From positions 1 to 34,553 of the forward strand of contig JALEGE010000104.1 of assembly GCA_022760335.1 (NCBI GenBank): 34,553 bases of DNA. Reading direction: 5' to 3'. Numbering within the stretch: position 1 is the stretch's first letter; each line of letters begins with the position of its first letter. A program made the position numbers and the translations under genes. This document shows positions 12,631 through 34,397 of the stretch, in pieces. The notes beneath the pieces are model-generated. The model was not told the origin of the DNA. It did no database searches and was given only the letters and a program-made list of their open reading frames with translations. This stretch comes from Hyphomonadaceae bacterium (GTDB taxonomy: Bacteria > Pseudomonadota > Alphaproteobacteria > Caulobacterales > Hyphomonadaceae).

Positions 12631-13629
12631 TTACTCGCGTTTTTCAGACAAGATCACCTTGTGGTCGGTTTTCTCCACTTGGAGACCATACATGTCTGCC
12701 ACAGTCGTGACGAAGGCATCGACTTCATTGATGCGTACGACCCCCGTGATCCGACGGTCGGCCGCGTCATTGGCGGTTAATGAAATTGGTGTTCGGGAGT
12801 AGCGATTGACTTCCTCGACAGCTTCAGAGAGAGCGGTCTCGTCGAAATAGATGTCGCCCTTGCGCCAAGCTGTTACGACTTCGAGAACCGGGCGATCGAT
12901 ATCGACCTCGTTACCTGCTTCCTCTGGCGAGTTGGCCTTGGTGTCGCGCAATCTTTCTCCGGGTTCCAGAAGAACAGACTGTTGGGTGCTACCGCTCCCC
13001 TGGCTCACCCGGACAACCCCTGAAAGTAGGGTCACTTCAATGCCCTGCAGATCATTTCGGACGATGAAAGAAGTTCCAAGTGCTTCCACAACTTGATCTT
13101 GGGTCTTCACAATGAAAGGGCGGTCGGCGTCATGGGTCACGCCGAACATGGCCTCACCGCGCTCCAGTGATACACGGCGCAAAGAGTCATCGTAGCGTAC
13201 ATCAAGTTTGGAGTTGGTGTTCAGGATGATGTTTGTGCCGTCTTCCAGTTGAACGGTTCTTTGCTCGCCAATCTCGGTTGAGTAGCTGGTCGTGTCTGGG
13301 CCAATAAGATTGGCCAAGAGAACAACAAATGCCGCGCAGGCCGCCAGGGCCACCACTTGAGAGGCCCGGGCCCAGGCGAAGCGACTATTCTGTTCAGGCT
13401 CCTCAAGGCGGAGCGCGCCCTCCAAATCTTCCCAAACCAGCAGGCCGTTCGCGAGAGCTTCGATGTCTTCTTCGCTGTCAAATTGACAGTGATCTGGGAA
13501 AGTCAGCGCCTCATCATCATGCGCACTCAGAGCATGACTCATGAGCGCCTGCTCTGCTGCAGACAGGCTGGAATCGGACACTTCAGTTTGTGGGAACCTG
13601 AAAAATCTCTTCACGATCCTTCCATCCAT
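12631..13629 (-). CDS. FecR-family anti-sigma factor / sigma regulator
   Basis: FecR proteins span the inner membrane and relay a periplasmic signal to a FecI-type sigma factor. The 332-residue product has an acidic cytoplasmic N-terminal part (1-85), one membrane helix (about 90-110), a FecR beta domain (about 118-210, with 'VQLEDGTNIILNTNSKLDVRY' and 'GEAMFGVTHDADRPFIVKT'), and the conserved W-x-KG-x-IYFDETALSEAVEEVNRYS block. It ends in an STN-like segment (267-332). The start overlaps the sigma gene's end by 19 nt, so they are coupled. The C-terminal 66 residues have the same length and closing motif (EKR) as the STN tail of the giant exoprotein encoded in the same locus. Confidence 0.93.
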   Translation of the reverse strand: MDGRIVKRFFRFPQTEVSDSSLSAAEQALMSHALSAHDDEALTFPDHCQFDSEEDIEALANGLLVWEDLEGALRLEEPEQNSRFAWARASQVVALAACAAFVVLLANLIGPDTTSYSTEIGEQRTVQLEDGTNIILNTNSKLDVRYDDSLRRVSLERGEAMFGVTHDADRPFIVKTQDQVVEALGTSFIVRNDLQGIEVTLLSGVVRVSQGSGSTQQSVLLEPGERLRDTKANSPEEAGNEVDIDRPVLEVVTAWRKGDIYFDETALSEAVEEVNRYSRTPISLTANDAADRRITGVVRINEVDAFVTTVADMYGLQVEKTDHKVILSEKRE

Positions 13630-14093
13630 TCAATCAAAAATGCCAATCCCTTGGCCATGCGTTTTTCAACGGCGCTCACACTTAATCCGAGCCTTTCGGC
13701 GATAGCCTTCATTTTCAGCCCTTCCAGCCTGCGGGCCTTGATGATTTCTGCAGTCAGCGGATCAAGCTGTTTAAAACCTTCATTCAATATGTATAGACGT
13801 TGCTTGGTGGCAAAAACCTCATCCGGCTGCGGAGAATCGTCTGCAATCGCATAATCTTCTACCGGGTCTGGCGCGAACTCAACCTTCGCCCGTTTACGGT
13901 GATGGTCGATCATGAGGTTCAATGCAACGCGCACAAGAAAAGCGCTTTCGTTTTCAACGGTTTGTTTCTTTTGGTATTTCTCAAGTCTCACCAAGGCATC
14001 CTGAATGATGTCTTCGGCTTCGAACTCGGCAAGGCCTCGTCGCATCAAGACCTTCTTTAAATGCTCCGTGTTGGCACGCAATGAGGAGGTCAT
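13611..14093 (-). CDS. FecI-like ECF RNA polymerase sigma factor
   Basis: The 160-residue product has sigma region 2 (about 8-75: 'EFEAEDIIQDALVRLEKY', then 'ESAFLVRVALNLMIDHHRKRAK') and region 4 (about 100-155: 'LDPLTAEIIKARRLEGLKMKAIAERLGLSVSAVEKRMAKGLAFL'), with no region 3. This is the ECF plan and is closest to FecI-type factors paired with FecR. The ATG at 14093 is preferred; the longer frame opens only with TTG and adds 23 residues lacking sigma features. It is divergent from the secretion operon, which is its likely target along with its own promoter. Confidence 0.93.
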   Translation of the reverse strand: MTSSLRANTEHLKKVLMRRGLAEFEAEDIIQDALVRLEKYQKKQTVENESAFLVRVALNLMIDHHRKRAKVEFAPDPVEDYAIADDSPQPDEVFATKQRLYILNEGFKQLDPLTAEIIKARRLEGLKMKAIAERLGLSVSAVEKRMAKGLAFLIEWMEGS

Positions 14094-14155
14094 CTTCGCT
14101 CGGCCCGCATTTTGAAGCACTTTCCGAAACAAGTGGCGCACACATCCAAGCGGGT

Positions 14156-14169
14156 TTGACAAATGTCAA
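14156..14169. promoter_or_regulatory. Inverted repeat upstream of the sigma gene
   Basis: TTGACA and TGTCAA are perfect arms around AA, 62 nt before the sigma start. The minus strand reads GTTGACATTTGTCAAAC. This shares ACATTT and GTCAA with a sequence upstream of the divergent tpsB gene (14674-14690). It may be the sigma factor's own promoter element or an operator. Confidence 0.35.
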
Positions 14170-14624: not shown

Positions 14625-14672
14625 GATTTTAATTTATGTGAAGTAAATAAAAATAGCGTTTAAGTCAGTATA

Positions 14673-14700: not shown

Positions 14701-14780
14701 AGACGCCTCCCTGACCGGATTTTCATGAGCTTCGCCCTCTCGGACATGGCGCGAAGCGCAACTCTGCAAGGATGGCGTGG

Positions 14781-16439
14781 ATGCGTACGAATGCGTTGCA
14801 ATGTGTTAGCTTCTGTGTGCTGGGGATTTCCCTGGCTTTTTCTGCTCAAGCACAAGAACCAGAAGCTGCGGTCGCGGCTGAAGAAGAAGCGCGCCTGGAC
14901 ATCTTGATCTATCGCATTGTTGGGAACTCCGTGCTCGACCGGATTGATGTTGAGCGTGCGGTGATGCCGTATCTTGGTCCCGACCGGCCTGTCTCGGATG
15001 TTGAGAACGCGCGCCAGGCCTTGGTGTCTGCCTATCGCGAAAAAGGCTATGAGACGGTGGATATTCGCCTGCCGGCGCAGGATGTGCGTGGCGGTGTCAT
15101 TCGCTTCGAGGTGGTCGAGTTCGAGATCGGACGTCTGCGTGTTGAGGGCGCACGCTACTACTCTCCCGAGGACATCATGGAGCGTCTGCCTTCGCTGAAG
15201 GAGGGGCGTGTTCCAAACTACTCCGATGTCTCCCGCGAAATCGCTCAGATCAATCAGTCCACAGATCGTCTGATCACGCCCAGTCTGCGTGCCGGGGCAA
15301 CGCCCGGTACCGTGGATGTCGACTTGTTTGTGGAGGACACGCTGCCGGTGCACGGCTCTGTCGAGCTGAATGACCGGGCATCTGCCCGGACTGAGCGTTT
15401 GCGCCTGTCTGCGGCGGTAAACTACAACAATCTCTTCCAACTTGATCACAGTGTTAACCTACAGGCCCAGATCACGCCGCAGGATCTGGAGCAGGCTTGG
15501 GTGGTGTCTGCATCCTATGTGGCGCCCGTGCGCAACACCCCCTTCACGCTGGTCGGGTATGCGGTTCATTCCGACAGTGATGTGGCGGCGATCGGTGGGA
15601 TCAATGTTCTCGGGTCCGGCGATATTGTCGGCCTGCGTGGGATCATGACCCGGATCACTGGAGTGGGTAATGCGGCGCTGGTTCATCAGGTCACGGCCGG
15701 TATCGATTACAAATCCTTCGAAGAGGATTTGAGCCTTGGCGGCGGTGTCACAACCGAAACGCCCATCGATTATGTGCCGCTGTCTTTGCGCTACTCGCTT
15801 GCAAATCGACAGCCCGAGCAAAGCATTGATTTTGGTGTCGGCCTTAATTTTGGGGTTCGTGGCCTTGATGCTGACAATCAGGAATTTCAGGACAAGCGCT
15901 TCGGCGCAAGTGCCAGCTGGGTCACCTTGAAAGGTGATTTCGGGTATTCCCGCACCTTCGCAGGAGATTGGCGCGCGCGTCTGGATGGTGCCTTTCAGTA
16001 TGCCGGAAAGCCGGTGATTTCCAACGAGCAGTTCTCTGCCGGCGGTCTGGACAGTGTGCGGGCCTATTATGAGGGGCAAATCGTCGGCGATGACGGCATC
16101 GCCACTCAGTTCCAGCTCGAAGCTCCCTCGCTCTTTGATGGCAGTCTGTTCAATGAGTTCCGGCCATTTGCTTTCGCCGATGGTGCGACCCTGCGCGTGC
16201 ATCAGCCGCTGGCGGGGCAGGATGAGACCGACGAAATCGCCAGTGTCGGGTTGGGCTTGAGGGCGCAGGCATTCGAGCGGTTGAACGCATCTGTTTTGGT
16301 TTCCCATGCCCTGGTTGAGCGCAATGAGTTTGTGGCTGCCTCGGATGATCCAAATGCGGAATTGATCGAGCGCGACACACTGCTGCGGGATGTCGGTGAT
16401 GACCTGCGCATTCAATTCCGTCTGTGGGCGGATTTCTAG
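14781..16439 (+). CDS. TpsB two-partner secretion outer-membrane transporter (ShlB/FhaC/HecB family)
   Basis: TpsB proteins recognise the TPS domain of their TpsA partner in the periplasm and pass it through a 16-strand outer-membrane barrel. The 552-residue product has a signal peptide (cleavage near SAQA-25), POTRA1 (about 40-114), POTRA2 (about 116-187, ending 'RAGATPGTVDVDLFVEDTLPV') and the barrel. The barrel opens with the family motif HGSVELNDRASARTERLRL. The loop-6 lid motif, normally VRGY, reads V426-R-A-Y429 within GGLDSVRAYYEG. AAGGA lies 8 nt before this ATG; an ATG three codons earlier overlaps that site. It is the first gene of the operon that ends with its apparent substrate 5 kb downstream, an unusual separation. 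Confidence 0.93.
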   Translation: MRTNALQCVSFCVLGISLAFSAQAQEPEAAVAAEEEARLDILIYRIVGNSVLDRIDVERAVMPYLGPDRPVSDVENARQALVSAYREKGYETVDIRLPAQDVRGGVIRFEVVEFEIGRLRVEGARYYSPEDIMERLPSLKEGRVPNYSDVSREIAQINQSTDRLITPSLRAGATPGTVDVDLFVEDTLPVHGSVELNDRASARTERLRLSAAVNYNNLFQLDHSVNLQAQITPQDLEQAWVVSASYVAPVRNTPFTLVGYAVHSDSDVAAIGGINVLGSGDIVGLRGIMTRITGVGNAALVHQVTAGIDYKSFEEDLSLGGGVTTETPIDYVPLSLRYSLANRQPEQSIDFGVGLNFGVRGLDADNQEFQDKRFGASASWVTLKGDFGYSRTFAGDWRARLDGAFQYAGKPVISNEQFSAGGLDSVRAYYEGQIVGDDGIATQFQLEAPSLFDGSLFNEFRPFAFADGATLRVHQPLAGQDETDEIASVGLGLRAQAFERLNASVLVSHALVERNEFVAASDDPNAELIERDTLLRDVGDDLRIQFRLWADF

Positions 16440-16475
16440 GGCCCGGGACACACTGTGAAAGACAAGGTAAATTCA

Positions 16476-18284
16476 ATGAGTATAAGAGCGTATGTGTCCG
16501 CGATGCTGCTGACCATGGTGCCGGCGCAGGCTTTTGCGGATGATGCAGATCTGAAAGCGGCCGCAGAAAATAGCGTCTTCGAGAAATCCTTCCGTGAGCG
16601 GAGAGTGGTTCAACTCGATGCGGCAGAAGTTCCGGAGCTGACCGAAGAAGTTACAGGCGCACCGGTACTTGTTCGTCTGCACAGCGGTGTATTCGATTTC
16701 TCCAAAGCTGCGCCGGATGGGTCCGATCTTCGCTTTGTCTCGTCTGACGGAACCCCGCTGGATTATCATATTGAGCGCTTCGATCCAGTTGCTTCTCTCG
16801 CCCTGATCTGGGTGCAGATCCCCTCTGTAGAACCGGCGGTTTCGCAGCAGGTCTGGCTGTATTACAGCGATGATACCGCAATGCGGATGGACGATTCCCG
16901 TGCGGTTTATGATGGGGAGTTCGCCTACGTCCTCAATATGAATGAGGATGCGAGTGTTCCCGTCGATCAAACGGCAAATGAAAATCGGTTTGCTGCAAGC
17001 GGGATAACGCCCACTTTGGGCGGAATGGTTGCTGGTGGCATGGAGCTGCGTGCTGACAGCACGATCCGGGCGACAGCAGATAGAGCTCTGAATGTCGAAG
17101 CAGGCACCGGTCAGCTGACCTGGTCGGCCTGGATCAATCCACAGCCGGTGGACGCTGAGTCTGGTGTGGCGGCAGATGGCCTTATCTATACCAAGCTGAG
17201 TACGGCAGGAGAAACAGGTGCATCCAGACTTGAGCTTGGTATCCGTGATGGTGAGCTTTATGCCGCTCTCGGCGAGGCCGAGCTTGTTGCGGACATGTCG
17301 CTTGCAGCCGACCTCTGGACGCATGTTGCAGTGGTTGCCGATGGCCAGACGCTGCGCCTTCTTGCCAACGGTGCTGTATTGGATGAGGCCCCGGCAGCGA
17401 TGCCAGAGCTGGGCGGTGAAGACGTCATTGGTGCCGTAGGCGAAGCGCCAGGATTTGTGGGGCGTATTGATGAGGTGCGCCGTTCCAATACTGCGCGGTC
17501 TCCTTCATTCATTGCGCTGGGCGCGAGAACAGAAGGGCGCAACGCGAACTTTGTGCGTGTGGCACCTGATGGCGAGGCGACCAGGGCGGGAGAGCACAAC
17601 TATTTCGCAATCTTGTTCAATGCGCTGACGCCTGATGCCTGGGCTGTCATCGTCATTTTGGCGGTGATGTCGGCGATCTCGTGGCTGATCATGTTCTCCA
17701 AGGCGGGCCTTTTGGGGCGCACCCGGAAAGCCAACCGCGCCTTCTATAATGCATATCAAGATGCCACGCATGGTGAGCATGCTGAAATCACTCTGACCGA
17801 TACTGAATTTGGAGCGAAGTACCCTCGAGCTTCGCTCGCCCGTTTGTTTCGGGTCGGTCAGAGTGAGCTTCTGATGCGCAATCAAGGAACCGAGGTGGTC
17901 TCACCTGAGGAGGTTGCGTCCATCCGTTCCGCGCTCGACGCTGCGCAGGCGCGAGAAGAGCAGTATCTCGGAAAGCGCATGGTCTTGTTGACCATCGCAA
18001 TTTCGGGCGGGCCCTTCCTGGGGCTGCTTGGAACTGTGCTGGGCGTGATGATCACCTTTGCAGGCGTTGCGGCAGCAGGGGAGGTGAATGTTACGGCCAT
18101 CGCGCCTGGCATTGCCGCCGCGCTGTTGGCGACGGTTGCTGGTCTTGCCGTCGCGATCCCGGCTCTGTTTGGGTACAACTACCTGAATGGTCAGCTTGAG
18201 CGTCTGCTGACGGACAATCTCACATTCGTGGACCAGCTCGAAAAGCGCATCGCTGAAACCTATCGCCCGTCGCGGCGGACATAG
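16476..18284 (+). CDS. DUF2341-LamG-ExbB fusion: motor proton channel with periplasmic sensor or binding domains
   Basis: The 602-residue protein has a signal peptide (cleavage near AFA-21), a DUF2341 domain (about 55-145, 'VLVRLHSGVFDFSKA...LRFVSSDG', 'WVQIPSV...QVWLYYSD') and a LamG/concanavalin-like jelly roll (about 180-345, with 'TWSAWINPQP', 'WTHVAVVADG', 'GRIDEVRRSNTARS'). A membrane helix at about 388-410 is followed by the MotA/TolQ/ExbB channel with GPFLGLLGTVLGVMITF (about 505-525) and a third helix. ExbB normally forms the pentameric proton channel with ExbD. Here about 380 extra residues project into the periplasm and could bind a glycan, peptidoglycan or the exoprotein. ATG at 16476 has AAGG 9 nt upstream. 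exbD follows after 9 nt. Confidence 0.92.
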   Translation: MSIRAYVSAMLLTMVPAQAFADDADLKAAAENSVFEKSFRERRVVQLDAAEVPELTEEVTGAPVLVRLHSGVFDFSKAAPDGSDLRFVSSDGTPLDYHIERFDPVASLALIWVQIPSVEPAVSQQVWLYYSDDTAMRMDDSRAVYDGEFAYVLNMNEDASVPVDQTANENRFAASGITPTLGGMVAGGMELRADSTIRATADRALNVEAGTGQLTWSAWINPQPVDAESGVAADGLIYTKLSTAGETGASRLELGIRDGELYAALGEAELVADMSLAADLWTHVAVVADGQTLRLLANGAVLDEAPAAMPELGGEDVIGAVGEAPGFVGRIDEVRRSNTARSPSFIALGARTEGRNANFVRVAPDGEATRAGEHNYFAILFNALTPDAWAVIVILAVMSAISWLIMFSKAGLLGRTRKANRAFYNAYQDATHGEHAEITLTDTEFGAKYPRASLARLFRVGQSELLMRNQGTEVVSPEEVASIRSALDAAQAREEQYLGKRMVLLTIAISGGPFLGLLGTVLGVMITFAGVAAAGEVNVTAIAPGIAAALLATVAGLAVAIPALFGYNYLNGQLERLLTDNLTFVDQLEKRIAETYRPSRRT

Positions 18285-18293
18285 GGGGCGATT

Positions 18294-18698
18294 ATGCAAA
18301 CGCACCAAAAGCGCAAGCCTTATGACGAGATCAACATCACGCCGATGGTCGACCTGACTTTTGTGCTGTTGGTGATCTTCATCCTGATGACCACCGCTTC
18401 GGTGCAGGGGATCAAGGTCAATCTGCCCAAGGCCAGTTCGGCCGCCAGCCTGGCCAAGCCCACGACGCGGGCCATCACGGTAGACAGCCGCGGGCAAATC
18501 TATCTCGACACGTTTCCGGTGACGATCGAACAGCTGGAACGCGAGCTGCGCACATACAAGGCGACAAACCCGGAGTTTCCGGTCGTCATCAAGGGCGATC
18601 AGGTGACTCAGTATGGCCGCATCATGGAAGCGCTGGATGCATGCGCGCGCGTCGGGTTGACCCAGATTGGTCTGGTTAGCGAGCGTCCGCGGAGTTGA
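18294..18698 (+). CDS. exbD: ExbD/TolR family biopolymer transport protein
   Basis: ExbD forms the peptidoglycan-anchored stator dimer inside the ExbB pentamer and carries the proton-accepting Asp. The 134-residue product has one N-terminal membrane helix with that Asp (NITPMVDLTFVLLVIF, Asp20) and a periplasmic domain with 'RAITVDSRGQIYLDTFPV' and 'VVIKGDQVTQYGRIMEALDACARVGLTQIGLV'. A GGGGG purine run precedes the ATG. It sits tightly between the ExbB fusion and TonB, so the three form a dedicated energy module. Confidence 0.95.
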   Translation: MQTHQKRKPYDEINITPMVDLTFVLLVIFILMTTASVQGIKVNLPKASSAASLAKPTTRAITVDSRGQIYLDTFPVTIEQLERELRTYKATNPEFPVVIKGDQVTQYGRIMEALDACARVGLTQIGLVSERPRS

Positions 18699-18704
18699 TG
18701 TGTG

Positions 18705-19412
18705 ATGCTTGAACCGCCCAAGTCCAGCATCTGGGATAATCTGCCGGCAATCTTGCTGGGGACGGTTTTCCTTGGCCTGCTCGTGGCTCTCTTCGTCTGG
18801 CTCTTCGGTACAGCCAAGGGGCCGGCGGAGGGGCGAATGGTTCACACGGTGACCATTGATGCACCGCCGCCTGAACCCGAGCCGGAGCCTGAACCCGAGC
18901 CAGAACCTGAGCCGGAGCCAGAACCCGAACCAGAGCCAGAGCCCGAACCACAGCCTGTTGTCGAGCCGATTGAGCAAGTTCAGCCTGTCGCAGAGCCAAC
19001 TGTCAGCGATACACCCAGCGAGGCTCCAGCTGAGCCAACCAACCAATTGGCGGGTCTTGATCGTCTCGCGGATGCCGGGTCGGACAGCTTCCGGCTCAGC
19101 GCGGGCGGCGGCGGCGGATTGTTCGGCCGCGGTACTGGCGGGGGCACATCCTGGACGTCTGCAGTCTTCGTTCATATCCAGCGCGCGCTGCAGCGCGATG
19201 ATCGAACGAAGAGCGCCGAGGGAAGCATAAAAGTCTCTGTGCGGATAAATTCGCGCGGTGAATTTTACAGCGTGAAGTTGCTCTCCACCACAGGCGATGA
19301 AGACCTCGATGAGGCCATTCGGAATGTTCTCTCGAGCCTGTCGCCAATGAGAAGTGCGCCACCACCCAGTGCGCCTGATCCACTCGTCATGAACATCAAC
19401 ATCAAGCGGTAA
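18705..19412 (+). CDS. tonB: TonB-family energy transducer with Glu-Pro spacer
   Basis: TonB carries the ExbBD force across the periplasm to outer-membrane partners. The 235-residue product has one membrane helix (about 14-36), a periplasm-spanning Glu-Pro repeat (about 54-82), a Gly-rich hinge (GGGGGLFGRGTGGG, about 132-146) and a C-terminal TonB domain. In that domain 'IKVSVRINSRGEFYSVKLLSTTGDEDLDEAIRNVLSSL' is the classic strand-helix signature. The initiation ATG is the second codon of a longer GTG frame. It lies 6 nt after exbD. No TonB-dependent receptor is encoded in the window, so its partner may be the TpsB, the porin or the exoprotein's STN tail. Confidence 0.93.
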   Translation: MLEPPKSSIWDNLPAILLGTVFLGLLVALFVWLFGTAKGPAEGRMVHTVTIDAPPPEPEPEPEPEPEPEPEPEPEPEPEPEPQPVVEPIEQVQPVAEPTVSDTPSEAPAEPTNQLAGLDRLADAGSDSFRLSAGGGGGLFGRGTGGGTSWTSAVFVHIQRALQRDDRTKSAEGSIKVSVRINSRGEFYSVKLLSTTGDEDLDEAIRNVLSSLSPMRSAPPPSAPDPLVMNINIKR

Positions 19413-19492
19413 TGTGGGGGATTAAGATGTTGAAAAACAAGAAAAATATTGAACTTTCGAAACTAATTCTGCTCCGAAAAGGGAACTCTGGA

Positions 19493-21064
19493 ATGTCTCT
19501 GCAAAGAAATCTCATGGCGGGTGTTGCGGCCGTCTCGGCCCTGACGGTCGTTGCGCCTTCTGCAGCCGCGCAATCGTCGGATCTGGAAGTCGAGATCCTG
19601 CAATTGTTGGTTGATGAGGGGGTGATCCCCTTTGACAAAGCCCAGGCGATCCTCGAAAGGGCTCGCCAGCAGCAGCAGGAAAAAGCTGCTGCGGAGGCGG
19701 CTGAAAATGCTCCTGATACGATCGATGTTCCCTATATCCCGCAGACGGTGCGTGAGGAAATCGAAAACAATGTTCGCGCAGACGTTATCGAAACGGCCAA
19801 GACCGAAGGCTGGGTTGCTCCCAATGTAATCCCGGACTGGGTGAACAAGGTCAAAATCAGCGGCGATTTCCGCGCACGCTATCAGCGTGAGGATTATCCT
19901 GAATCTGTGCTCGGCCCGAATGGTGAGCTGATCGATGGAAACTTCCCGTATTTTCCTGACGCAGCGGAAATCAATCGTCTGGGCGGTGTGACGGATGCGG
20001 ATGGTTTTCCGCTCATCAACTCCACAGAAGACTCGTCGCGGCCGAATTATCGTGCCCGCATCAAGTTCGAGGCCGGCATTGGCGACAATGTCACCGTCGG
20101 ACTTCGCCTGGCATCGGGTGACAATGATGGCGCCGTATCCACCAATTCGACTTTTGGTGACTATTACTACAAAAAGTCGATCTGGATCGATCAGGCCTAT
20201 GTTGATGTCTCGCCGCTTGAGGGTGTGAATCTCATCGCGGGCCGGATGCCCAATCCGTTCTTCTCCACAAACATGCTCTGGGATGAAGATGTAAATCCTG
20301 AGGGCCTCGCCCTCGCCGCTGATTATGAGATCAATGACAGTGTGAGCGTGTTCGGTGTTGGCGGCGTTTTCCCGCTGCAACAGCGCGACTTCTTCGACGA
20401 CAGCTATCTTTATGCCGGCCAGATTGGCGCCAAGGGCCTTTTCGCTGAGCGGCTCGAGATCGAGGGCGCGGTTGCCTATTACATGTTCGACAATGTGCAG
20501 AGCATGAAGAACCCGGATGATGGGTCGCGGATCAATGACTGGAGTGCGCCGACCTACCTGGCCAATGGCAACTCGCTGTTCAATATCCGCACCGATGGTC
20601 TGACCACGCTTGCTGGCCTGGCGGCTGAGTATGAGCTGATGGCGGCAACCCTGCGCATGGCGCTCCGCGATGGCGATCGTCGTTATGGCCTGATCGGCGA
20701 AGTGGTGAAAAATGACGCGCTGGATGAGGATGAGATCACCGCGCTTCGTGGAGAACCTGGCGTTGAGCCGGGCGATACTGGTTGGCACGTCAAGGGATTT
20801 GCTGGGTATCCCGTGATTTCCGAACGTGGCCAGTGGCGCGTTGAGGCGGGGTACCGACATGTCGAGACCGATGCCGTGCTCGATATCTTCACGGATTCCG
20901 ACTTTGCCCTCGGTGGCACGGATGTCGAGGGCTACATCCTCAAAGGCGATGTTGGCATCTATGAGAATACCAGCATCGGTGCGGCCTATCTGTCTTCGGA
21001 CGCGATCAATCGCCCGCCATTCTCGCTCGACATCTTCCAAGTCAATCTCAACGTCCATTTCTGA
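19493..21064 (+). CDS. Putative outer-membrane porin with N-terminal coiled coil
   Basis: The 523-residue product starts at the ATG at 19493, which has AAAAGGGAA upstream and gives a clean signal peptide (cleavage near SAAA-Q). A longer frame opens with an ATG overlapping the tonB stop (TAATG at 19411-19414) and adds 27 residues. After the signal come an alpha-helical Gln/Ala/Glu-rich coiled coil (about 28-70) and then a beta-barrel with alternating aromatic strands ending in the C-terminal Phe (VNLNVHF). It belongs to the putative-porin type found with ExbBD/TonB operons. The coiled coil may contact peptidoglycan or a periplasmic partner. It has no TonB plug domain, so it is not a standard TonB-dependent receptor. 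Confidence 0.85.
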   Translation: MSLQRNLMAGVAAVSALTVVAPSAAAQSSDLEVEILQLLVDEGVIPFDKAQAILERARQQQQEKAAAEAAENAPDTIDVPYIPQTVREEIENNVRADVIETAKTEGWVAPNVIPDWVNKVKISGDFRARYQREDYPESVLGPNGELIDGNFPYFPDAAEINRLGGVTDADGFPLINSTEDSSRPNYRARIKFEAGIGDNVTVGLRLASGDNDGAVSTNSTFGDYYYKKSIWIDQAYVDVSPLEGVNLIAGRMPNPFFSTNMLWDEDVNPEGLALAADYEINDSVSVFGVGGVFPLQQRDFFDDSYLYAGQIGAKGLFAERLEIEGAVAYYMFDNVQSMKNPDDGSRINDWSAPTYLANGNSLFNIRTDGLTTLAGLAAEYELMAATLRMALRDGDRRYGLIGEVVKNDALDEDEITALRGEPGVEPGDTGWHVKGFAGYPVISERGQWRVEAGYRHVETDAVLDIFTDSDFALGGTDVEGYILKGDVGIYENTSIGAAYLSSDAINRPPFSLDIFQVNLNVHF

Positions 21065-21079
21065 TCGCGGGGGTCACTC

Positions 21080-21589
21080 ATGTTCAAGTCAATGCAAGGA
21101 CTTTGTGCCGGTCTCGCCTTTGCGATTGCGTTCCCGGCTGTTGCTCAAACTCCCGATGGGGGCGCCTCAGGCGCCTCCACATCAGGCGCAGTTGTTCAGG
21201 ACTGTCCGCCTTTGGGCGAAGCACGAATCGACTGCCTTGAGTATCGTCTGGCGCGGCAAACTCAAATGGCGACGAATGCGCGCCAGCAAATGGAAGCCTT
21301 GCGTCAGGAGACGACGCTCAAGGATGAGATGATTGCGCTTGGCATTGAGCGCAACGCCGAGCTCTATTCCATCGCCAGTGAGATCGTTGAAAAGGGCATC
21401 TCCCCGCGCTCGATGGAGCCGTTTCTCCAGTTTCGCCGCGTTGAGATGGAAAATCTCATGCAATCCTATGAGGACCGGCTCCGGCAGGCGCGAATTTATC
21501 CGTCCACACTCCCACCCAGCGTTCAAAAACGCATGGATGAGGAATTGTCCCAACAACAAGGCTCACACGCGGAAGGCGGCGGATCCTAA
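21080..21589 (+). CDS. Small periplasmic coiled-coil protein of unknown function
   Basis: The 169-residue product has a signal peptide (cleavage near AVA-22), a Gly/Ser/Ala linker, a short Cys pair (C-PPLGEARID-C) and then a long charged helix (about 55-150). It ends in a Gln/Gly-rich tail. No domain is recognised. It lies 15 nt after the porin and 52 nt before tpsA. By position it may be a periplasmic chaperone for the giant exoprotein or an adaptor between TonB and the outer-membrane proteins; nothing in its residues settles this. Confidence 0.8.
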   Translation: MFKSMQGLCAGLAFAIAFPAVAQTPDGGASGASTSGAVVQDCPPLGEARIDCLEYRLARQTQMATNARQQMEALRQETTLKDEMIALGIERNAELYSIASEIVEKGISPRSMEPFLQFRRVEMENLMQSYEDRLRQARIYPSTLPPSVQKRMDEELSQQQGSHAEGGGS

Positions 21590-21641: not shown

Positions 21642-24600
21642 ATGACCCGTTCGATCCTTCCGGCCTGTGATATTCACAAGTCTGCTATGAAACTGATGAC
21701 GACTGTCAGTTTTGCGTCCCTGTCGCTGGCGCTCAGCTTCAACTCTTCCGCTGTTGCTCAGGAACAACCCTTTGGGACAATGGTTGGGATGCAGAATGGC
21801 ACGGTTACATTGCCGAATGGCCAACTCTCGCAATGGACGGGCGCGAACGCTCCGATGATCGGCTTGGACGAGGACGGACGTCCTCTGATGACCATCGAGC
21901 AGACAGAGTCCAAAGCGCTTTTGGACTGGGAAGATTTCCGTCTACAGACAAATGAGGTGCTGGAATTTCAGCAGCAGTCGGAGAACTGGATCGCGGTCAA
22001 CCGTGTCCATGGCAATCAGGCGGCTGAAATCCATGGCGAATTGCGTGCGCCAGGCAAGGTTTTTATCTTCAATGATAATGGCGTGCTCATTGGTGAGGAT
22101 GCTATTATCAGTACCCGTACGCTCGTCACCGGGCAGGGCGTTTCCGACGTCAATATCGACGGCAATGTCACGACAATCACACAAAGTCAGGAGCGCGCCA
22201 TCCTGAATTGGTCGGACATGTCCACCCAGGCTGGCGAACTGATGAAGTTTGACCAGGAGCGGACCGACTGGATCGCGCTCAACCGCTCCCTGTCGGAAAA
22301 CCCGACCCGTTTGGCTGGCGACATCGAGGCGGATGGTCATGTCTATCTTGTTGCGCCTGAGGGGCTTGGCATCGCGGGCGATGTAACAGCCCAGCAGGTT
22401 ATCGCCTCTCAACTGGATATTGTGGATGAGCAATTCCTGGAAGGGTTCAGCAAGGTCATCGAGCTCGGCGGTGTATCGGCACACTTCAGCAACTCTTGGC
22501 AGAGAGAGCCGGACCCGCGCCGAAGCAGTGACATTCCGATATCGGAGTATCTGGAAACGCTTGAAGGTGGGCCTCGACGCCTGGATCCAAACGATCCGCT
22601 GCGAGATCAGCTGCGCATCGAGTCGGGGGCAACCATCACCACCGGCAATAAGGGCGCGATCGTTCTGATCGGGAATGCCGTAACCAATGAGGGTACGCTC
22701 AGCATTCAAGACGAAGGGCAAGTCGTTCTGGCGGCTGGCGAGCATGTATGGCTAACGCCCGAGGAAGATGATCAGAGCAATGAGCGCTTTGAGGCTGTAA
22801 GCGGTTTTTGGAACAGTGTTCGCTTTGGTGAGAATGGCGCCCAACGCATATATGACCAGTTTGTTGTTATCGACAGCGCCGCCGAACTGGAGGTCATTGA
22901 GGGCGCGACTGGGCTCGATTATGAGATGGGAGACACAATCTCCTATAATGAATGGTACGGGTATGGCGGGTTCGAGCCACTCTTCGCTGCCGTCGGAAAG
23001 TATCTTGAAGCCAGAGCTGACGCCGTCGCAATTCAAAATGATCATGTTGCGCGCAATACGGGTTCCATACTTTCAAGCGGAGGTGGCCGTGTAGACTTCC
23101 GTGGTATGCAGCTTGAACAGCTCGGTGTGATTGACTTGCAGTCTACGGCAAACTTCCGCGCCGGCGTGGACATGGAAGCACGCCTGTACTCCTATCTTCA
23201 AAATCGTGAAGACAATGAAGATGGTCCAACTCTTGGCAATAACGGCACGGTCATCTTCGGTGAAAATAGCTTAACGCAGATCACGCCGGATCCGGATGCC
23301 ATTGATACCATCGCGCTCTCGGAAGGGGCGCAATCGATCGGCTCGTTGGAGATCAACGCCTTCCGTGTGCACATGGAAGACAATTCCATCATTCACATGC
23401 CCAGCGGCAGGGTAAGCATCTGGTTGGATGAAGGTAGCAAATTCAAAGGGATATCGAGCCAGGCCGGGGGCGTGGACAATGAGTCCGGCACCCGTTTCAT
23501 GATGGAAGACGGGGCCCTGATCGATCTTTCCGGTTGGGACCAGACTGTCCTGCCCATGTCGTATCATGTCGTCAAAGGCCGGGCTTATGCCGCGCAGCTT
23601 GCGAATTCGCCACTGCAGCGAGATGGCGTACTTTACCGCCAGGAAATCGCAGTTGATCGCCGCTACGGCACTGACATTGTCGACTGGGAATCCTTTGACA
23701 ATCTGACCCAGGGCACGCTCGAGCAGTTTCTGACAAACGGCGGCACTTTCGCGCTGAATGGCGACAACGACTTCATCATGAAGAGTGGGTCGGTCATTGA
23801 TGTGTCCGGCGGGGTCACGACTTATGAAGACGGCTATGTCACGACGACCCATTTGCGCCGTCTCGACGGAACGCTGATCGATATTCGGGAAGCCGATCCT
23901 GACGAGCTCTATATGGGTCTGGCCAATGAGTGGGTCACCTATGATCTGAAATGGGGCCAGCAGACCAAGTATAATGTGCCTTTGGTGTCTTCCATCCAGC
24001 GGCTCTATGAGAGCTCCTATCAGGAGGGTGGTGATGCCGGCGTTATCGACATCCTGTCTCCCGACGCTATTTTGCAGGGCACGATGCGGGGCGAAGTTGT
24101 TGTTGGCCGGTATCAGCGGCTCAACATGCCGGAAATGGGCCAGTTCCTCATCGGCACCGCTGGGGAAGGCGACAAGGAGTTCAACGCCAACAACATCCTC
24201 ATCGAAGCGATGGACAGGCTCGTAGAGGCCAATTTCGGTCTTACCGACAATCTGGAAGATCAGTTCGGTGGTTTGTTCGGAGTCGAGTTTGACGAAGCCC
24301 TGAATGAGACCGGCGAAAACGCTGAATCCGGAACAGTTACAAGCGATAACACACTTCTGATCTCGGGCGATTTCTTCAGCCGGTCGAGCATGGGGAGCTA
24401 CACGATTGGGCAATCCACGGTCACGCTTGATGCTGAAGGCGCGCGTGTCCCGTACTCAATCATCGTGGAGGATGGGGTTGATATCGATCTGTCTGGCGGG
24501 GCATCGCTCAACCTCTTCGCCGATAATACTGGTGGCATCTATTTTGGCGGCGATGTCCGGACCGAAGGCGGCGATATTTCCATCACCGGCGGCAGCCTCG

Positions 24601-30600: not shown

Positions 30601-33600
30601 CCGGGGATAAGATCCTCATTGATCCGGCAACGGGTGACTATGTTGATACCGCGCTCTTTGCCCGGCGTCCGTTACCCTGGGTGGCGCTGGACAGCAGCCT
30701 GAGCAACATACCAAATCAGGATCTCTCCAGCATTGGAACGCTACTGATTTCGAGCCGAGATCCACAAAACTATCTCTCGGCCGTTGTTGGGTATCTGCAG
30801 TGGGATAACAGCACAGGCTATTCCGTGAGGACCGGTACAGGAGACATCAATGTCGCCAGTGGCCGTGACTTCGTTCTCCAGGAAAAACCCTCGGTGCTCT
30901 ATACGGCTGGTGAAACTGCAGACCCCATAGATGGCTTCATCCCTGCAATCAGCGGCTACACGCCAACCAATGGGGGTGACATCACGATCCGAGTGGCCGG
31001 TGATGTTCATGGCAGCGCGAGCTGGCAACTGCCTTCCGCGTGGCTGCGGCAGGCTGGGGTTGTCCGCGATGGTGCCTTCCTTGAAGATGATGGTTTCTCG
31101 GGCGGTCTTCCCGGCACCTTCCATCAAACCAACTGGTTTATCGATTTTGGCCAGTATCAAGCCGGAGTTGGCGCGCTTGGAGGCGGTAATGTCATTGTCG
31201 ATGCCGATGGCGACATTCTTGATCTGACGGTCAATATTCCAACAACCGGTCGTGTGGCCGGTGGGCGCACCCCGGAAGAACCGACAAGCTTCCACCAGAC
31301 GGGTGGAGGTGACCTCATCGTCAATGCGGGCGGCGACATACGCGCCGGGGTCTTTTATGTTGGCGATGGTGAAGGCAAGATCTCGGCCGGAGGCTCGATC
31401 ATTGGACGAGAAGATGCGGTTGCCCGTATCGATACCTTCGCACGAAGCGCAGATACCCAAGGCTGCCTCACCGGCAATGCGGTATCGCCATGCTATGTGC
31501 ATGCGGATCCATCCGAGTTCAGCCGCTATCAGGACCTGTACACGATCTTCTACACATCTGGCGGCCAGCTCGATGTTCGTGCTGGGGGTGACATCAATGT
31601 GGATGCCGTTCTCGATCCTTTGGCGCCGGAATATTTTGAAGATGCAGATGTGCTGCTGAGCTATACCGATGATGCCTCAGTGTCGTTCTTCTCAGCGGGC
31701 GGTGACATCAAGCTGTGGAACAATTCGCTCAACATTGCCGCGCTTCGAGAACTGGGTGCCGTGATGGAGCGCGCCACGTACTTCGAAAGCGTCCAGGGCG
31801 AGAGCTCTATCAACTTCGAGACCGGTCTGGATGTGGAACTCTGGCCTGCCACAGTTCTGGCAACTGCAGCAGCAGGGGACATTTACAGCTATGGCGGTCT
31901 CTTTTTGGCGCCTTCGCCCACCGGAAACCTGGAGCTTATCGCACGTGACAATGTCCAGATCGGCCTGTTTGCGGAGCCCGGATTGAGCTTGAATGCGCTG
32001 GAACGCCAGCGGGCAAACTATCTCAGTGCCACCGATGGTATCTTCATGAGCCAGGCGCTTGCGGAGTTTGTGCCGTCACCGGACAATCCGCGTGCAAGCG
32101 GCGGGCGTTTGAACAGTGTTGGCTTGAGATGGGCCGGAGGGCTGCCGCAGCTCTTCTCCGCGGAAATCCCACCAATCCTGCATCTCGGCGATTCCGACCC
32201 GGCACGGTTCTATGCCGGAAGAGGCGATGTGATCTTCTCGGATATCGTCACCTTGCCGAAAGAGCTGGAAGTGCGCGCTGGGCGGCACATTTACTTCCCG
32301 CAACTGCGTATACAGCATAACAATCCAGATGATCTCTCGCTGTTCAAGTCAGGCGGAGGAGTCTACTTCGACCCCGATTCCTTCGTTGATCTCCAGGGTG
32401 ACGGGCGCCTCGAATTTGAGGTTGGTACGGATTTCTGGATGCCAGCTTATCGGTTCTCCAATCTTGGTGGCACAAGTCCGGTGCGGGCAACGCAATATGC
32501 CACCTGGAATGAGCGCTTCGGGATCGTTACCCGCCGGCCTGTTATTGGTGGATACTCCATCACGCCTGCTGAAGAGTGGCAGCCCAACTCCGATGTCGCG
32601 GATATCTCGATTATGGTCGGCCTTGAACAAGAGCCAAATTATGAAGGCTTTGCCGACTGGCTCTTCAACCCGGAAGCCGTTGATACGCCTGACTATGCGC
32701 TGGTCGATGCTGGCAATGGTCAGCGCCTGTCTATGTATCTGTTCGACCGCCTCAATCCGCGTGCGGATCGTGGCGTCGACCCAGTCCTGATCGAGAGCGC
32801 AGAGCTGGCACAAGGCTTTGTGAACTATGTCCGCGAGCAGCAGGGACTGAATCCGCTCGCTACCGAAGCTGCACAGCAGGCCTATCTGGATGAGGCGTGG
32901 GGCTACTGGCTGACCATTCCGGAAGGACAGGCGACGCCCTATGACAGCTTGCTCCCGCGTGGAGAGGCTGCGCTCGGTGCCCGACCGGAGTTCTATCTGC
33001 CGGAAAAATCCGAAGGCCTTGTCAACTATGTTCGCCGGATGAGCGGGCTTGCTCCGCTTGCCACCCAGGATGAGCAACTGGCTTATCTGGATGAAGCCTG
33101 GGCGCTGTGGAACGAGATGGATGTCAAGAACAAGACACCCTTCTTCCGCGACACGCTCTATCATGAATTGCGCACGACTGGGCGTGAAGGCAATGATCCC
33201 GGAAGTGAGCGCTATACCACCACATTCCGGGGCTATGATGCGATCGCGAAACTGTTCCCGGGCGCACAGCTCGCCTCCGATGAGGAGCTGGGCGATGGTG
33301 AAGTTCGCTGGGACGGTGACTTCCAGGCCTATGCTGGACGAGTGCTGTCCCGCGGCGGCGATGGCAATATCGAGATCATGGTTCCCGGCGGCCAGTTGGT
33401 ACTTGCCAATATTGCAGCCACACCTGGGCAGACGGGCCAGAACGTTGCGACCGATTCCGGTGTCATCACGGAGAGTGGAGGAGCAATCAGCCTGTTTACG
33501 CATGACAGCATTTCCCTGAATGCTTCGCGCGTCATGACAGCGAAAGGCGGCAACATTCTCGGTTGGTCGTCCTGGGGCGATATTGCGGCTGGGCGGGGCG

Positions 33601-34397
33601 CCAAGACGTCCATTTCTCCGCCAGGGTATGCGTATGATTATAATGCCTGGTTCGATCTCGAGCGCGTCTCCGCCGGTCTGCCGACAGGGGCAGGGATCTC
33701 GACCCTGGCGACGGTGTCTGGTGCGCCGACCGCCGATGTTGATCTCATCGCTCCAGCGGGTGTGATTGACGCAGGCGATGCCGGCATTACCGTTTCAGGT
33801 AACTTCAACGTCTTTGCTGTCGAAATCCTTGGTGCCGACAATATCGATGTTTCGGGTGTGTCCACGGGCCTGCCGACACCGCCGACGGCTCCTCCAACTT
33901 CGCTCGATATCGATACCAACGACAAGAATGAGGTTGTGAACAAGGTGCTCGATGACGCCATCAATCTGGTCCAGCAGGACCGCTTGGTGACCTCTCCATC
34001 CCTGATCGATGTGCAGATCGTCGATGATCCATGTGCAAGTGGTGGAGCTGGCGATCAGGCGTGTCTGTCAGACGCTCCAGCTGAATCCGGAGATGGGTTG
34101 CAAGACACGGCACCGGTCGCGGATGAAGCGGCCTCGCCTGTGGCTTCGATCGACGACCCACTTCCTGAGATCGCTTTCAACATGCCGGCTCAGCCGCTTG
34201 AGCGGGCGGTTCGGCAAGTTGGGGATCAGGCAAAGATCACGGTCCTGTATGACGCAGAGGCTCTCGATGGGATCTATACCCGGGCTTTCAGTGGCGTCAT
34301 GGCACCAGATCAGGCGCTGTTGCAGATGCTTTCTGCCGAGGCAGTTACCGTGAAGCGGACGGGGCCGCGCGCGCTTCTGCTTGAAAAACGCAACTAG
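21642..34397 (+). CDS. Giant TpsA filamentous-haemagglutinin exoprotein with C-terminal STN domain
   Basis: The 4251-residue protein starts at the ATG at 21642 with AGGA 9 nt upstream. It has a long signal region (1-40, extended n-region before the hydrophobic core). Two TPS secretion modules follow (about 83-165 and 177-260). The body is a beta-helix of Gly/Asp/Asn-rich coils (about 280-3700). A helical 67-residue tandem repeat (3725-3826) is followed by a DUF3739-like region (about 3900-4080, 'AGRGAKT', 'DLIAPAGVIDAGDAGI'). The C terminus has a Cys-x9-Cys loop (4131-4141), an acidic Pro/Ala linker and an STN domain (4176-4251). Only five Cys occur: one in the signal region and two close pairs (3275/3284 and 4131/4141). 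It is probably a surface adhesin or matrix protein. The STN tail is unusual for TpsA and links it to the local FecR/sigma and TonB genes. Confidence 0.93.
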   Translation: MTRSILPACDIHKSAMKLMTTVSFASLSLALSFNSSAVAQEQPFGTMVGMQNGTVTLPNGQLSQWTGANAPMIGLDEDGRPLMTIEQTESKALLDWEDFRLQTNEVLEFQQQSENWIAVNRVHGNQAAEIHGELRAPGKVFIFNDNGVLIGEDAIISTRTLVTGQGVSDVNIDGNVTTITQSQERAILNWSDMSTQAGELMKFDQERTDWIALNRSLSENPTRLAGDIEADGHVYLVAPEGLGIAGDVTAQQVIASQLDIVDEQFLEGFSKVIELGGVSAHFSNSWQREPDPRRSSDIPISEYLETLEGGPRRLDPNDPLRDQLRIESGATITTGNKGAIVLIGNAVTNEGTLSIQDEGQVVLAAGEHVWLTPEEDDQSNERFEAVSGFWNSVRFGENGAQRIYDQFVVIDSAAELEVIEGATGLDYEMGDTISYNEWYGYGGFEPLFAAVGKYLEARADAVAIQNDHVARNTGSILSSGGGRVDFRGMQLEQLGVIDLQSTANFRAGVDMEARLYSYLQNREDNEDGPTLGNNGTVIFGENSLTQITPDPDAIDTIALSEGAQSIGSLEINAFRVHMEDNSIIHMPSGRVSIWLDEGSKFKGISSQAGGVDNESGTRFMMEDGALIDLSGWDQTVLPMSYHVVKGRAYAAQLANSPLQRDGVLYRQEIAVDRRYGTDIVDWESFDNLTQGTLEQFLTNGGTFALNGDNDFIMKSGSVIDVSGGVTTYEDGYVTTTHLRRLDGTLIDIREADPDELYMGLANEWVTYDLKWGQQTKYNVPLVSSIQRLYESSYQEGGDAGVIDILSPDAILQGTMRGEVVVGRYQRLNMPEMGQFLIGTAGEGDKEFNANNILIEAMDRLVEANFGLTDNLEDQFGGLFGVEFDEALNETGENAESGTVTSDNTLLISGDFFSRSSMGSYTIGQSTVTLDAEGARVPYSIIVEDGVDIDLSGGASLNLFADNTGGIYFGGDVRTEGGDISITGGSLVFADDVVLDTSAGWYNEYESRDALTLGLQKPRPLRYDIRIDAGDITLGQNLFSRSREDSALVLPETMVLKLAGGGWANRDGEVVGGRGGTLSVNAYTNNNVDLSAIYNAEILGLGGNGGFALASPLTFYIGDGPGEFPALPVTEDMAMGEDDPIDMPIEVEEPETEDYILISPDLFSENGYSSVAITGDRIMVTDGTIINAATKTLGLRPASLDGGLAPWILADTGADISQLIEVTDIPLGFRAEGLSRGVDITFSTQGDLDTISEASGTIVMGEGSLVRTDVGGSISVLGSGMNPIHILGTLEANGGRIDIIGSEGAAPTQAGTVILGENAVLRSQGAAVITERNTSPQGESWQDGYVADGGEITLAANQVTFEDGALLDVRGGQGQFDIRPESGETNTRVRKTFSSNGGRVEISAQVLDIGGGSYLAQAGGEDARGGTFALNYLSSYTGAPEGLDPSRYEALVTRMELYDRVGLYRNSSFQSVPLYGTDLSELALVVSTPVNIQESLVFADRSELIAYLQTLDVPAAGPPPILVIGDPEVDLGLDAFGAGGGIGDPGFIEMLAGIRFRYELLPAYDGPERVAYLSIDAINAGGFANLDLDIAPAVVFAGDVSLGGMTDSGTYAFDTVSITSPNLMAADGANVSLDAQVLNFATLTDASFNQNAFDIAMAQANVGTPGSEAVFTAKSGTITDIVDANFRGFDTVNLSSDGDIRLRGYEITPFQSNNGLDTQLYGALKTSGDLNLKADQVYAATGREFTVQAGGDLTIFAQDEGQALNGTPLEAAARLILEAENITQGGIVRSPLGEIVLRATGEDGTVTFLDGSITSASSDGNVVPYGELNNGDTWIDPTAQGALAEERELRVLPERRVSISGDNIDLQDGALVDLSGGGDLIASEFTPGFGGTVNWLTGYYDKSYEWVEAPGEIYAIIPDFEGNVAPLGLTDAGPQVGERIYLSGGSGLPEGYYTLLPAEFALLPGAYRVTAQHHYDGDYSGVSLGTSASLLDGSSLQAGYRFVGDERLRDPRTTAFLVMPRETLFLRSSYNLQQATSFFQSSEFLEKTLRRNQPLPEAPRSPLDGGSIVLAATQSMILNGDLDMRAVEGGRGGLADIQADSILVAGAETDLSAYDGYLVLQSEQLSEFGASSLLFGGYRQQGDLNLELTVGASDIVVDNAGSSLTGEEFLFASRGAVTVKADSTIETTGESSGNASDLQVIPVAERLVDDKGTEDVADDEPIHGVIDYGSVLRVSANGQIDVLRDGLGVENYAALSANPLQLEQVNQVRASFGLPPLRTDDLTGLINIETGASLTASGSLLLDATRNSIIDAGAVVSAPQIGAAASRVSIGAVPGDVEGLVFSGGSLGQLADAQDIALRSYGAIDFYGGITLAASDSLSLDASELRILEGDGETVRVTASTLTLTNTSGGSGEATQGDAALRLEADNIYLAGADKWVSGVDTVQMIAGERVVGRDFGGLFVPGALSIDAASITAESGGSVTFDAQGDVRLLANGTVLDPLATFGATLNVLGASLTSEAQFALTGGAVNLRARSGDLVLTGGEIDVTSAEVEIFDRLIGVGGGSVSLISDTADIVVGEGVTVDVSGAGAAGDAGRISLDAGLGQILLNGSLIGNAPEGGRSGTVEFIGQELTGIGELNQALDAGGFLEARRFVSRQGDITLDGTVTARNVSVVTNDGDITVTGTVETVGEGRGEIQLAASDNLNLTSTGRLYARTGAQGGAVLLETRGANNGQIILASGSVIDVGGGAEDGGIVRLRAPQVGGNDVAIGAVDAEIVGAQSVLAEAFRSYDNVSVIDDAVITAVIADADAFMVNSPANTARFGGIEITPGIELRNDGDMELVSDWDLSSTRYNGLPGVLTLRAAGDLLVNANLSDGFDGTTPDAALLSGPSWSLNLVGGADLSSPNSLAVLPVGLLDQDRGSVIIGGTPDTIEYYLRADTGASRLYLLGEDGRFLNSLPTGLGASTQAYNPAYFFELDRDVDGDYLHPVTGDKILIDPATGDYVDTALFARRPLPWVALDSSLSNIPNQDLSSIGTLLISSRDPQNYLSAVVGYLQWDNSTGYSVRTGTGDINVASGRDFVLQEKPSVLYTAGETADPIDGFIPAISGYTPTNGGDITIRVAGDVHGSASWQLPSAWLRQAGVVRDGAFLEDDGFSGGLPGTFHQTNWFIDFGQYQAGVGALGGGNVIVDADGDILDLTVNIPTTGRVAGGRTPEEPTSFHQTGGGDLIVNAGGDIRAGVFYVGDGEGKISAGGSIIGREDAVARIDTFARSADTQGCLTGNAVSPCYVHADPSEFSRYQDLYTIFYTSGGQLDVRAGGDINVDAVLDPLAPEYFEDADVLLSYTDDASVSFFSAGGDIKLWNNSLNIAALRELGAVMERATYFESVQGESSINFETGLDVELWPATVLATAAAGDIYSYGGLFLAPSPTGNLELIARDNVQIGLFAEPGLSLNALERQRANYLSATDGIFMSQALAEFVPSPDNPRASGGRLNSVGLRWAGGLPQLFSAEIPPILHLGDSDPARFYAGRGDVIFSDIVTLPKELEVRAGRHIYFPQLRIQHNNPDDLSLFKSGGGVYFDPDSFVDLQGDGRLEFEVGTDFWMPAYRFSNLGGTSPVRATQYATWNERFGIVTRRPVIGGYSITPAEEWQPNSDVADISIMVGLEQEPNYEGFADWLFNPEAVDTPDYALVDAGNGQRLSMYLFDRLNPRADRGVDPVLIESAELAQGFVNYVREQQGLNPLATEAAQQAYLDEAWGYWLTIPEGQATPYDSLLPRGEAALGARPEFYLPEKSEGLVNYVRRMSGLAPLATQDEQLAYLDEAWALWNEMDVKNKTPFFRDTLYHELRTTGREGNDPGSERYTTTFRGYDAIAKLFPGAQLASDEELGDGEVRWDGDFQAYAGRVLSRGGDGNIEIMVPGGQLVLANIAATPGQTGQNVATDSGVITESGGAISLFTHDSISLNASRVMTAKGGNILGWSSWGDIAAGRGAKTSISPPGYAYDYNAWFDLERVSAGLPTGAGISTLATVSGAPTADVDLIAPAGVIDAGDAGITVSGNFNVFAVEILGADNIDVSGVSTGLPTPPTAPPTSLDIDTNDKNEVVNKVLDDAINLVQQDRLVTSPSLIDVQIVDDPCASGGAGDQACLSDAPAESGDGLQDTAPVADEAASPVASIDDPLPEIAFNMPAQPLERAVRQVGDQAKITVLYDAEALDGIYTRAFSGVMAPDQALLQMLSAEAVTVKRTGPRALLLEKRN
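21888..22415 (+). repeat. Tandem duplication of the TPS secretion module inside TpsA
   Basis: Residues 83-164 and 177-258 share one pattern with a constant 94-residue offset. This is seen at W96/W190, W116/W210 and N120-R121/N214-R215. The pattern is the TPS-domain core: 'ALLDWEDF' then 'VLEFQ', 'W.AVNR' and 'GKVFIFNDNGVLIG'. The second copy has diverged in the normally invariant NPNG turn (VAPEGLGI). Confidence 0.7.
32814..33119 (+). repeat. 67-residue tandem helical repeat in TpsA
   Basis: Residues 3725-3760 and 3792-3826 both read G(F/L)VNYVR....GL.PLAT...Q.AYLDEAW..W. The unit recurs once after 67 residues, interrupting the beta-helix with an alpha-helical module near the C-terminal end. 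Confidence 0.75.
34167..34394 (+). other. STN domain coding segment at the extreme 3' end of tpsA
   Basis: Residues 4176-4251 match the STN (secretin and TonB N-terminus short) domain: 'FNMPAQPLERAVRQVGDQAKITVLYD', then 'FSGVMAPDQALLQMLSAEAVTVKR', ending LLEKRN. STN domains are known from FpvA/FecA-type signalling receptors, where they contact FecR-type regulators, and from secretins. An acidic, Pro/Ala-rich linker separates it from the Cys loop. Confidence 0.85.

Follow-up and report, generated by a model that had tools for sequence, protein, structure and literature searches.

How could a protein that is exported from the cell report back to a regulator in the membrane behind it? This question is raised by a two-partner secretion (TPS) locus of a Hyphomonadaceae bacterium, carried by contig JALEGE010000104.1 of GenBank assembly GCA_022760335.1. 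The window, i.e. the whole stretch of 34,553 nucleotides that was analysed, makes up the entire contig (C29); the genome to which it belongs measures 3.5 Mb and is 97.09% complete. It encodes the exoprotein TpsA (4251 residues), identified by its PF05860 TPS domain and a linked TpsB transporter, as well as an extracytoplasmic function (ECF) sigma factor adjoining a FecR-type membrane regulator, the pair that characterizes cell-surface signalling. The outer part that is known for such FecR/ECF signalling is a TonB-dependent receptor. An earlier note, made from the sequence of the window, placed an STN domain at the very end of TpsA and linked it to FecR. The last ~80 residues of TpsA are confirmed here as an STN domain of the TonB-dependent transducer type (HasR, FpvA, FecA, PupB), and TpsA probably works as its own cell-surface-signalling transducer for FecR, as a direct-fusion variant of the PUMA3 (VreA) arrangement of Pseudomonas aeruginosa.

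Taken alone, the window sequence gives a faint STN signal. The full 4251-residue protein searched against Pfam returned no STN at E<=1, the TPS domain and DUF3739 being the sole domains shown, and a PF07660 search of the window genome gave no match at the TpsA tail, a result that speaks against the STN identity; whole-protein Pfam and NCBIfam scans were set aside for this purpose, the signal being too weak inside 4251 residues. The last 170 residues match Pfam STN with E=0.002 (18.3 bits, below the cut-off of 28.4), the last 84 match PF07660 with 4.4e-4 (20.4 bits, also below the curated cut-off), and the NCBIfam FecA model matches the same tail stretch with 1.5e-4. When the C termini of the window TpsA and of seven relatives are aligned, 8/8 match PF07660, with a best E of 6e-16, and a profile of these eight tails retrieves from the PDB the HasR signalling domain (7.6e-11), FpvA (1.7e-9), FecA (5.5e-6), and PupB (6.1e-6). 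The match is unambiguous because the relatives are added to the weak signal of the single sequence. In the same line, the AlphaFold2 model built from the eight sequences shows the two beta-alpha-beta STN fold (predicted local distance difference test, pLDDT, 87.1; predicted template modelling score, pTM, 0.76). Searched with Foldseek, this model finds FpvA (E=1e-6) and the PupB chain of the PupR-PupB complex (1.5e-6), and VIA-align gives Z 11-12.7 for FoxA, FpvA, and PupB, secretin N0 domains scoring lower (Z 7-9). An AlphaFold model of the 283-residue TpsA tail has its STN part well above pLDDT 50 and its residues 1-199 below 50; it gives no usable structure of DUF3739, the Cys pair, or the linker. 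The single-sequence Pfam score under the curated cut-off would fit a chance resemblance or an assembly artefact, a reading whose probability is negligible: it is refuted by a domain boundary and a stop that are alike in eight genomes, by the profile and structural matches, and by selection. Indeed, the fused STN is under purifying selection, its codons showing a ratio of nonsynonymous to synonymous substitution (dN/dS) of ~0.1 in two close species pairs (dN 0.017 and 0.048; dS 0.161 and 0.449).

Besides the window, TpsA proteins with a C-terminal STN were found in Woodsholea maritima (same order as the window organism; Maricaulales at NCBI), Sphingomonas gei, Sphingomonas sp. 37zxx, Sphingomonas sp. 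ERG5, Asticcacaulis endophyticus, and in one metagenome-assembled genome (MAG) each of Sphingomonas and Asticcacaulis. Across a phylum sample, DUF3739 occurs in 14/398 genomes, and one of 20 TpsAs, that of the window, carries an STN. An order sample searched with the window tail yielded 8 DUF3739-bearing places in 6/299 genomes, two of them with STN, and a class sample 10 places in 5/385 genomes, where the one STN is again that of the window. Among the named genomes, STN is present in 7/14 loci, a count biased upward because the scan patterns were taken from the window and Woodsholea. In a plasmid search, DUF3739-type matches turned up in 14 records, all of them covering less than 80% of the query. 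The TpsA-STN fusion is thus a minority form with patchy spread. The nearest STN-less TpsAs, those of Peristeroidobacter soli and a Solimonas MAG (58 and 59% identity over the shared tail), end directly after the Cys pair discussed below.

As for the partner of the domain, residues 114-328 of the window FecR (12646-13290) can be aligned to the periplasmic domains of PupR (5.5e-15) and of a second anti-sigma factor of solved structure, and a PF04773 search finds this FecR as the only one of the window genome. Searches of the same genome with PF07660 and the VreA profile revealed no second STN protein. The VreA-like profile A2 has two matches at E<0.001, the TpsA tail (1.2e-9) and the operon's TonB protein, neither of them a VreA-like protein; the sole PF07660 match (E=0.245, 13.6 bits) lies at a place listed as a thioredoxin-like gene and was rejected as false. 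At the completeness given above, a gene may have been missed. If the STN-like part that FecR itself contains is set aside, elimination leaves the TpsA tail as the one observed STN that could serve the window FecR.

A comparison of related loci extends this picture. The genes before TpsA were read in 45 loci, 7 fused and 38 unfused. The fused loci have sigma factor and FecR beside TpsB in 7/7, i.e. in those whose contigs reach that far, and a VreA-like protein in 0/7. Of the unfused loci, whose TpsA tails carry STN in 0/38, 26 have sigma/FecR, and a VreA-like STN protein lies near in 26/26; the three VreA-like proteins that were scanned show an STN and a TonB-like C-terminal domain, as is described for VreA itself (PMC2729926). 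In the remaining 12 (Peristeroidobacter 2, Solimonas 2, Inquilinus 2, Exilibacterium 1, and 5 others), sigma/FecR and VreA are both absent (12/12) within the stretch read, which is the fetched ~6 to 16 kb before TpsB, TpsB itself not being found there for some. TPS loci bearing sigma/FecR hence have exactly one kind of STN source in 33/33 cases (fused 7, free VreA-like 26), never both, with a Fisher p of 3.5e-11 by locus and of 1.6e-8 with same-kind loci merged within a genome, values that overstate, the loci being related. Two genomes serve as internal controls: in S. gei, which has a fused and an unfused locus, VreA accompanies the latter alone, and of the two loci in genome G155, one carries sigma/FecR/VreA and the other lacks all three.

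In terms of scoring, Asticcacaulis UBA2476 was entered as fused and sigma/FecR-bearing even though its TpsA is on one contig and its sigma/FecR/TpsB/ExbB on another, and ERG5 contigs C57 and C14 were taken as one VreA-type locus across two contig ends. The 45 leave aside ERG5 C34 (fused; the contig begins 201 bases before TpsB), G481 C70 and Exilibacterium C108 (the contig ends), Inquilinus MP06 (short contig), nine class-sample TpsAs, and the plasmid matches. Gene order also distinguishes the two types, vreA-sigma-fecR standing directly before tpsA in about half of the VreA-type loci and sigma-fecR standing before tpsB in the fused ones; in G393, G302, G094, and G130, the vreA-sigma-fecR set is found 11-13 kb before tpsA, not adjoining it. 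Bradyrhizobium sp. LHD-71 has five DUF3739 TpsAs (L113-L117), each with its own VreA-sigma-FecR set. Fused and VreA types co-occur in S. gei (L095, L106) and in Sphingomonas sp. ERG5 (L099, L107, L108), which offers material for the study of cross-talk.

Because the FecR is the sole one of its genome, no other STN protein was found, and the one-source rule holds in 33/33 loci, contact of the TpsA STN with FecR is strongly suggested by genomic data. The link between STN, TpsA, and FecR drawn in the earlier note is thereby supported, but the note had missed that in most related loci the STN resides in a free VreA-like protein.

Contact with FecR supposes that the domain stays in the periplasm. 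Export of TpsA proteins begins with the N-terminal TPS domain. In the fused TpsAs, a Cys pair precedes the STN in 8/8 tails, 102-120 residues from the end (Cys4131 and Cys4141 in the window), while it occurs in 7/31 unfused tails and then in 3/13 more, two of which repeat earlier tails; the STN-less sisters L088 and L089 have the same pair within the last 17 residues. The anchored TpsA proteins HMW1 and HxuA are described as being locked in TpsB by a loop close to the C terminus that is closed by a disulfide and remains in the periplasm (PMC5422565, PMC8151025). The window TpsA resembles them in its TPS secretion and in its Cys pair near the C terminus, but differs by ~100 further residues, mostly signalling domain, after the pair, and by a linked dedicated Ton complex and sigma/FecR. 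Because the Cys pair precedes the STN, we infer that the latter lies on the periplasmic side of the supposed TpsB lock. The suggestion that a C-terminal STN could remain periplasmic, a sensible place for meeting FecR, therefore gains support from a conserved Cys pair at the place of the HMW1/HxuA anchor. A second Cys pair is present at TpsA residues 3275 and 3284 (31464-31493), ~900-980 residues before the end. It recurs about equally far from the end in the seven fused-type TpsAs whose reading extends to this region; sister L088 lacks it.

The same topology could be read in other ways. The STN might be a secretion or anchoring part only, either as a folded knob after the Cys pair that is unable to pass TpsB or as a module binding POTRA or another STN-like partner, FecR being regulated otherwise. 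Its position after the Cys pair suits a plug, and disulfide-bonded C-terminal parts are described as holding some TpsA proteins at the cell (PMC5422565). This reading is nevertheless unlikely: it leaves unexplained why the fused STN was observed solely in loci that have sigma/FecR and lack VreA, it does not account for the closeness to receptor signalling domains, and the STN-less sisters with a Cys pair would already be anchored. Somewhat less probable still is that the STN acts as a C-terminal prodomain of the FhaB kind, which would delay folding or hold the protein at the pore until cleaved off by a protease, signalling being a by-product or absent. In favour, the linker between DUF3739 and STN is variable, the FhaB prodomain stays intracellular according to a title cited in PMC5422565, and the FoxA signalling domain is reported to be cleaved (PMC11637429). 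The co-occurrence with FecR and the exclusion of VreA argue against this reading, although cleavage may itself be the switch, in which case this reading and that of TpsA as a transducer are compatible. Finally, the STN could be exported to the cell surface with the rest of TpsA and have an extracellular role, some TpsA proteins being secreted into the milieu (PMC5422565). However, the known STN partners named in PMC11637429 are periplasmic and the Cys pair argues for retention, which makes this possibility very improbable.

In the light of known systems, the closest counterpart of the locus is PUMA3 of P. aeruginosa (VreA-VreI-VreR, with PdtA/PdtB, ExbB2-ExbD2-TonB4, and PA0696). It resembles the window in that an ECF sigma factor and a membrane anti-sigma regulator control a TPS locus, that this locus comprises ExbBD/TonB and a putative porin, and that an STN-type domain comes without a receptor barrel (PMC2729926, PMC7035377). 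Whereas the STN of PUMA3 belongs to the separate VreA, together with a TolA/TonB-like part, that of the window is fused to TpsA, and no VreA-like protein was found. VreA-type loci moreover differ from the fused type in their FecR and STN lineages. In the FecR tree, the fused-type FecRs group together (89/83) among receptor-type FecRs, and the VreA-type ones form a separate group (100/100). In the STN tree, built on few columns, the TpsA STNs stand apart from the VreA STNs with weaker support, one long receptor row falling among the former. Because the FecR and STN trees split and the gene order differs, the connection of TPS loci with FecR signalling appears to have arisen on two occasions, through a free adaptor in one case and through fusion in the other, as judged from trees of few rows. 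Compared to the transducers FpvA, FoxA, FecA, PupB, and HasR, the window shares the STN fold and profile and the paired ECF sigma/FecR, but its STN is C-terminal on a secreted exoprotein instead of N-terminal on a plug/barrel receptor, and the Pfam scan of TpsA shows no plug or beta-barrel. A C-terminal STN is also found in the PupR/FecR periplasmic domain, where it is carried by the anti-sigma factor and not by an exoprotein; a 2020 paper describes the STN domains in SMART as N-terminal to other domains and that of PupR as a new arrangement (PMC7186176). A literature search on TPS, TpsA, DUF3739, or VreA together with STN, FecR, or ECF returned PUMA3, reviews, and unrelated work and no STN in a TpsA, subscription papers lying largely outside its reach. 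A link from TPS to FecR-type signalling is thus already known from PUMA3, with the STN mostly in a free VreA-like protein, and the direct fusion is new.

Taken together, these data suggest the following model. TpsA would leave through TpsB, N terminus first, until its C-terminal disulfide loop halts in or under the TpsB pore, so that the STN stays periplasmic. There it would dock on the periplasmic domain of FecR, as the FoxA and PupB signalling domains dock on FoxR and PupR. The fit between STN and FecR may depend on the state of TpsA (fully exported, surface-bound, pulled, or shed), and an altered contact would either expose FecR to proteolysis or shield it, the sigma factor being thereby freed or held. 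Force for the change of contact may come from the co-encoded Ton complex, and the sigma factor would be expected to drive the tpsB-exbBD-tonB-porin-tpsA operon. In related loci, the separate VreA-like protein would do the job of the transducer. In the Fox system, the receptor signalling domain without signal binds the anti-sigma factor and protects it from proteolysis (PMC11637429), and the periplasmic domain of PupR depends on the PupB domain for its stability (PMC7186176). By analogy, the TpsA STN would hold FecR, and this hold would change with an event at the surface or with export that is completed, fails, or ends in shedding.

Several points weigh against TpsA as a transducer. In P. aeruginosa, deletion of vreA left the sigma-VreI regulon unchanged under phosphate starvation (PMC4971064) and zebrafish virulence unaffected (PMC7035377); because of these deletions without effect, an STN protein beside FecR need not matter in a given condition. 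The STN is the end of the protein in TpsA, unlike in receptors, and TpsB might let the Cys loop pass. The descent of the fused STN from VreA is unsupported, the STN tree separating the two, and TpsA is then not simply a fused VreA. Lastly, no promoter motif linking the sigma factor to the tps operon was found in the window.

The features of the locus are collected in the following table.

Features of the TPS locus and of TpsA in the window (residue numbers refer to TpsA)
Feature	Coordinates	Strand	Remarks
FecR-type membrane anti-sigma factor, 332 residues	12631..13629	-	
ECF sigma factor	13611..14162	-	overlaps fecR start; divergent from tps operon
TpsB outer-membrane transporter	14772..16439	+	POTRA_2, ShlB
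ExbB-type proton channel	16455..18284	+	N-terminal DUF2341 and Laminin_G_3 (Pfam)
ExbD	18294..18698	+	Pfam
TonB-like protein	18702..19412	+	TonB_2 C-terminal domain
Porin_5 outer-membrane porin	19412..21064	+	PF16930 E=5.8e-124
169-residue protein	21080..21589	+	Pfam matches only at chance level
TpsA exoprotein, 4251 residues	21642..34397	+	one open frame; signal-like N terminus, TPS domain, DUF3739, Cys pair, C-terminal STN
TPS secretion domain, residues 83-175	21888..22166	+	PF05860 E=1.2e-19
DUF3739, residues 3969-4079	33546..33878	+	PF12545 E=3.3e-27
Cys4131 and Cys4141 (CX9C)	34032..34064	+	candidate disulfide anchor, between DUF3739 and STN
STN signalling domain, residues 4176-4251	34167..34394	+	up to stop codon

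Regarding the neighbouring genes, the DUF2341 and Laminin_G_3 part before the MotA/TolQ/ExbB part of ExbB is an unusual extension, and proteins of similar length recur in related loci. The 169-residue protein directly precedes tpsA in the fused-type loci reaching that far and in the STN-less sisters, with weak matches in two others. The start of the contig (137-10214) holds flagellar genes (DUF1217, export ATPase family, rod protein, FliE, FHIPEP, Bac_export_1 and 2), and a sialate-esterase-family (SASA) gene lies at 8289-10214. Two candidate regulatory elements were rejected. The 8-mer CGTCCTTG, which we take as possibly resembling a FecI-type -10 element, was spotted by eye upstream of tpsB in 4/7 fused-type loci (L051, L095, L097, L098), two of these loci being near-copies, and is absent before tpsB in the window (gap 14163-14771), A. 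endophyticus, and ERG5. A dyad search gave 3/6 versus 2 in shuffles, in AT-rich sequence, and was not used.

With respect to the wider meaning of the fusion, the secreted TpsA that PUMA3 controls is encoded by a gene that contact with human cells induces, while both the signal that feeds PUMA3 and what VreA does in it are described as unknown (PMC7035377). The fused TpsA is a second kind of C-terminal STN protein beside the FecR-type regulators, and such a natural fusion of STN and exoprotein points to the exoprotein as the input of FecR/ECF signalling. That an exported exoprotein would form the outer input of a sigma/anti-sigma pathway, TpsA sensing contact, pull, or export state and reporting via its periplasmic STN to FecR, is a proposal for which we consider the chances evenly balanced. 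If it is true, most DUF3739-type TPS loci would be self-sensing, a task solved twice independently, by the VreA adaptor and by fusion, and the so far unexplained VreA would gain a role.

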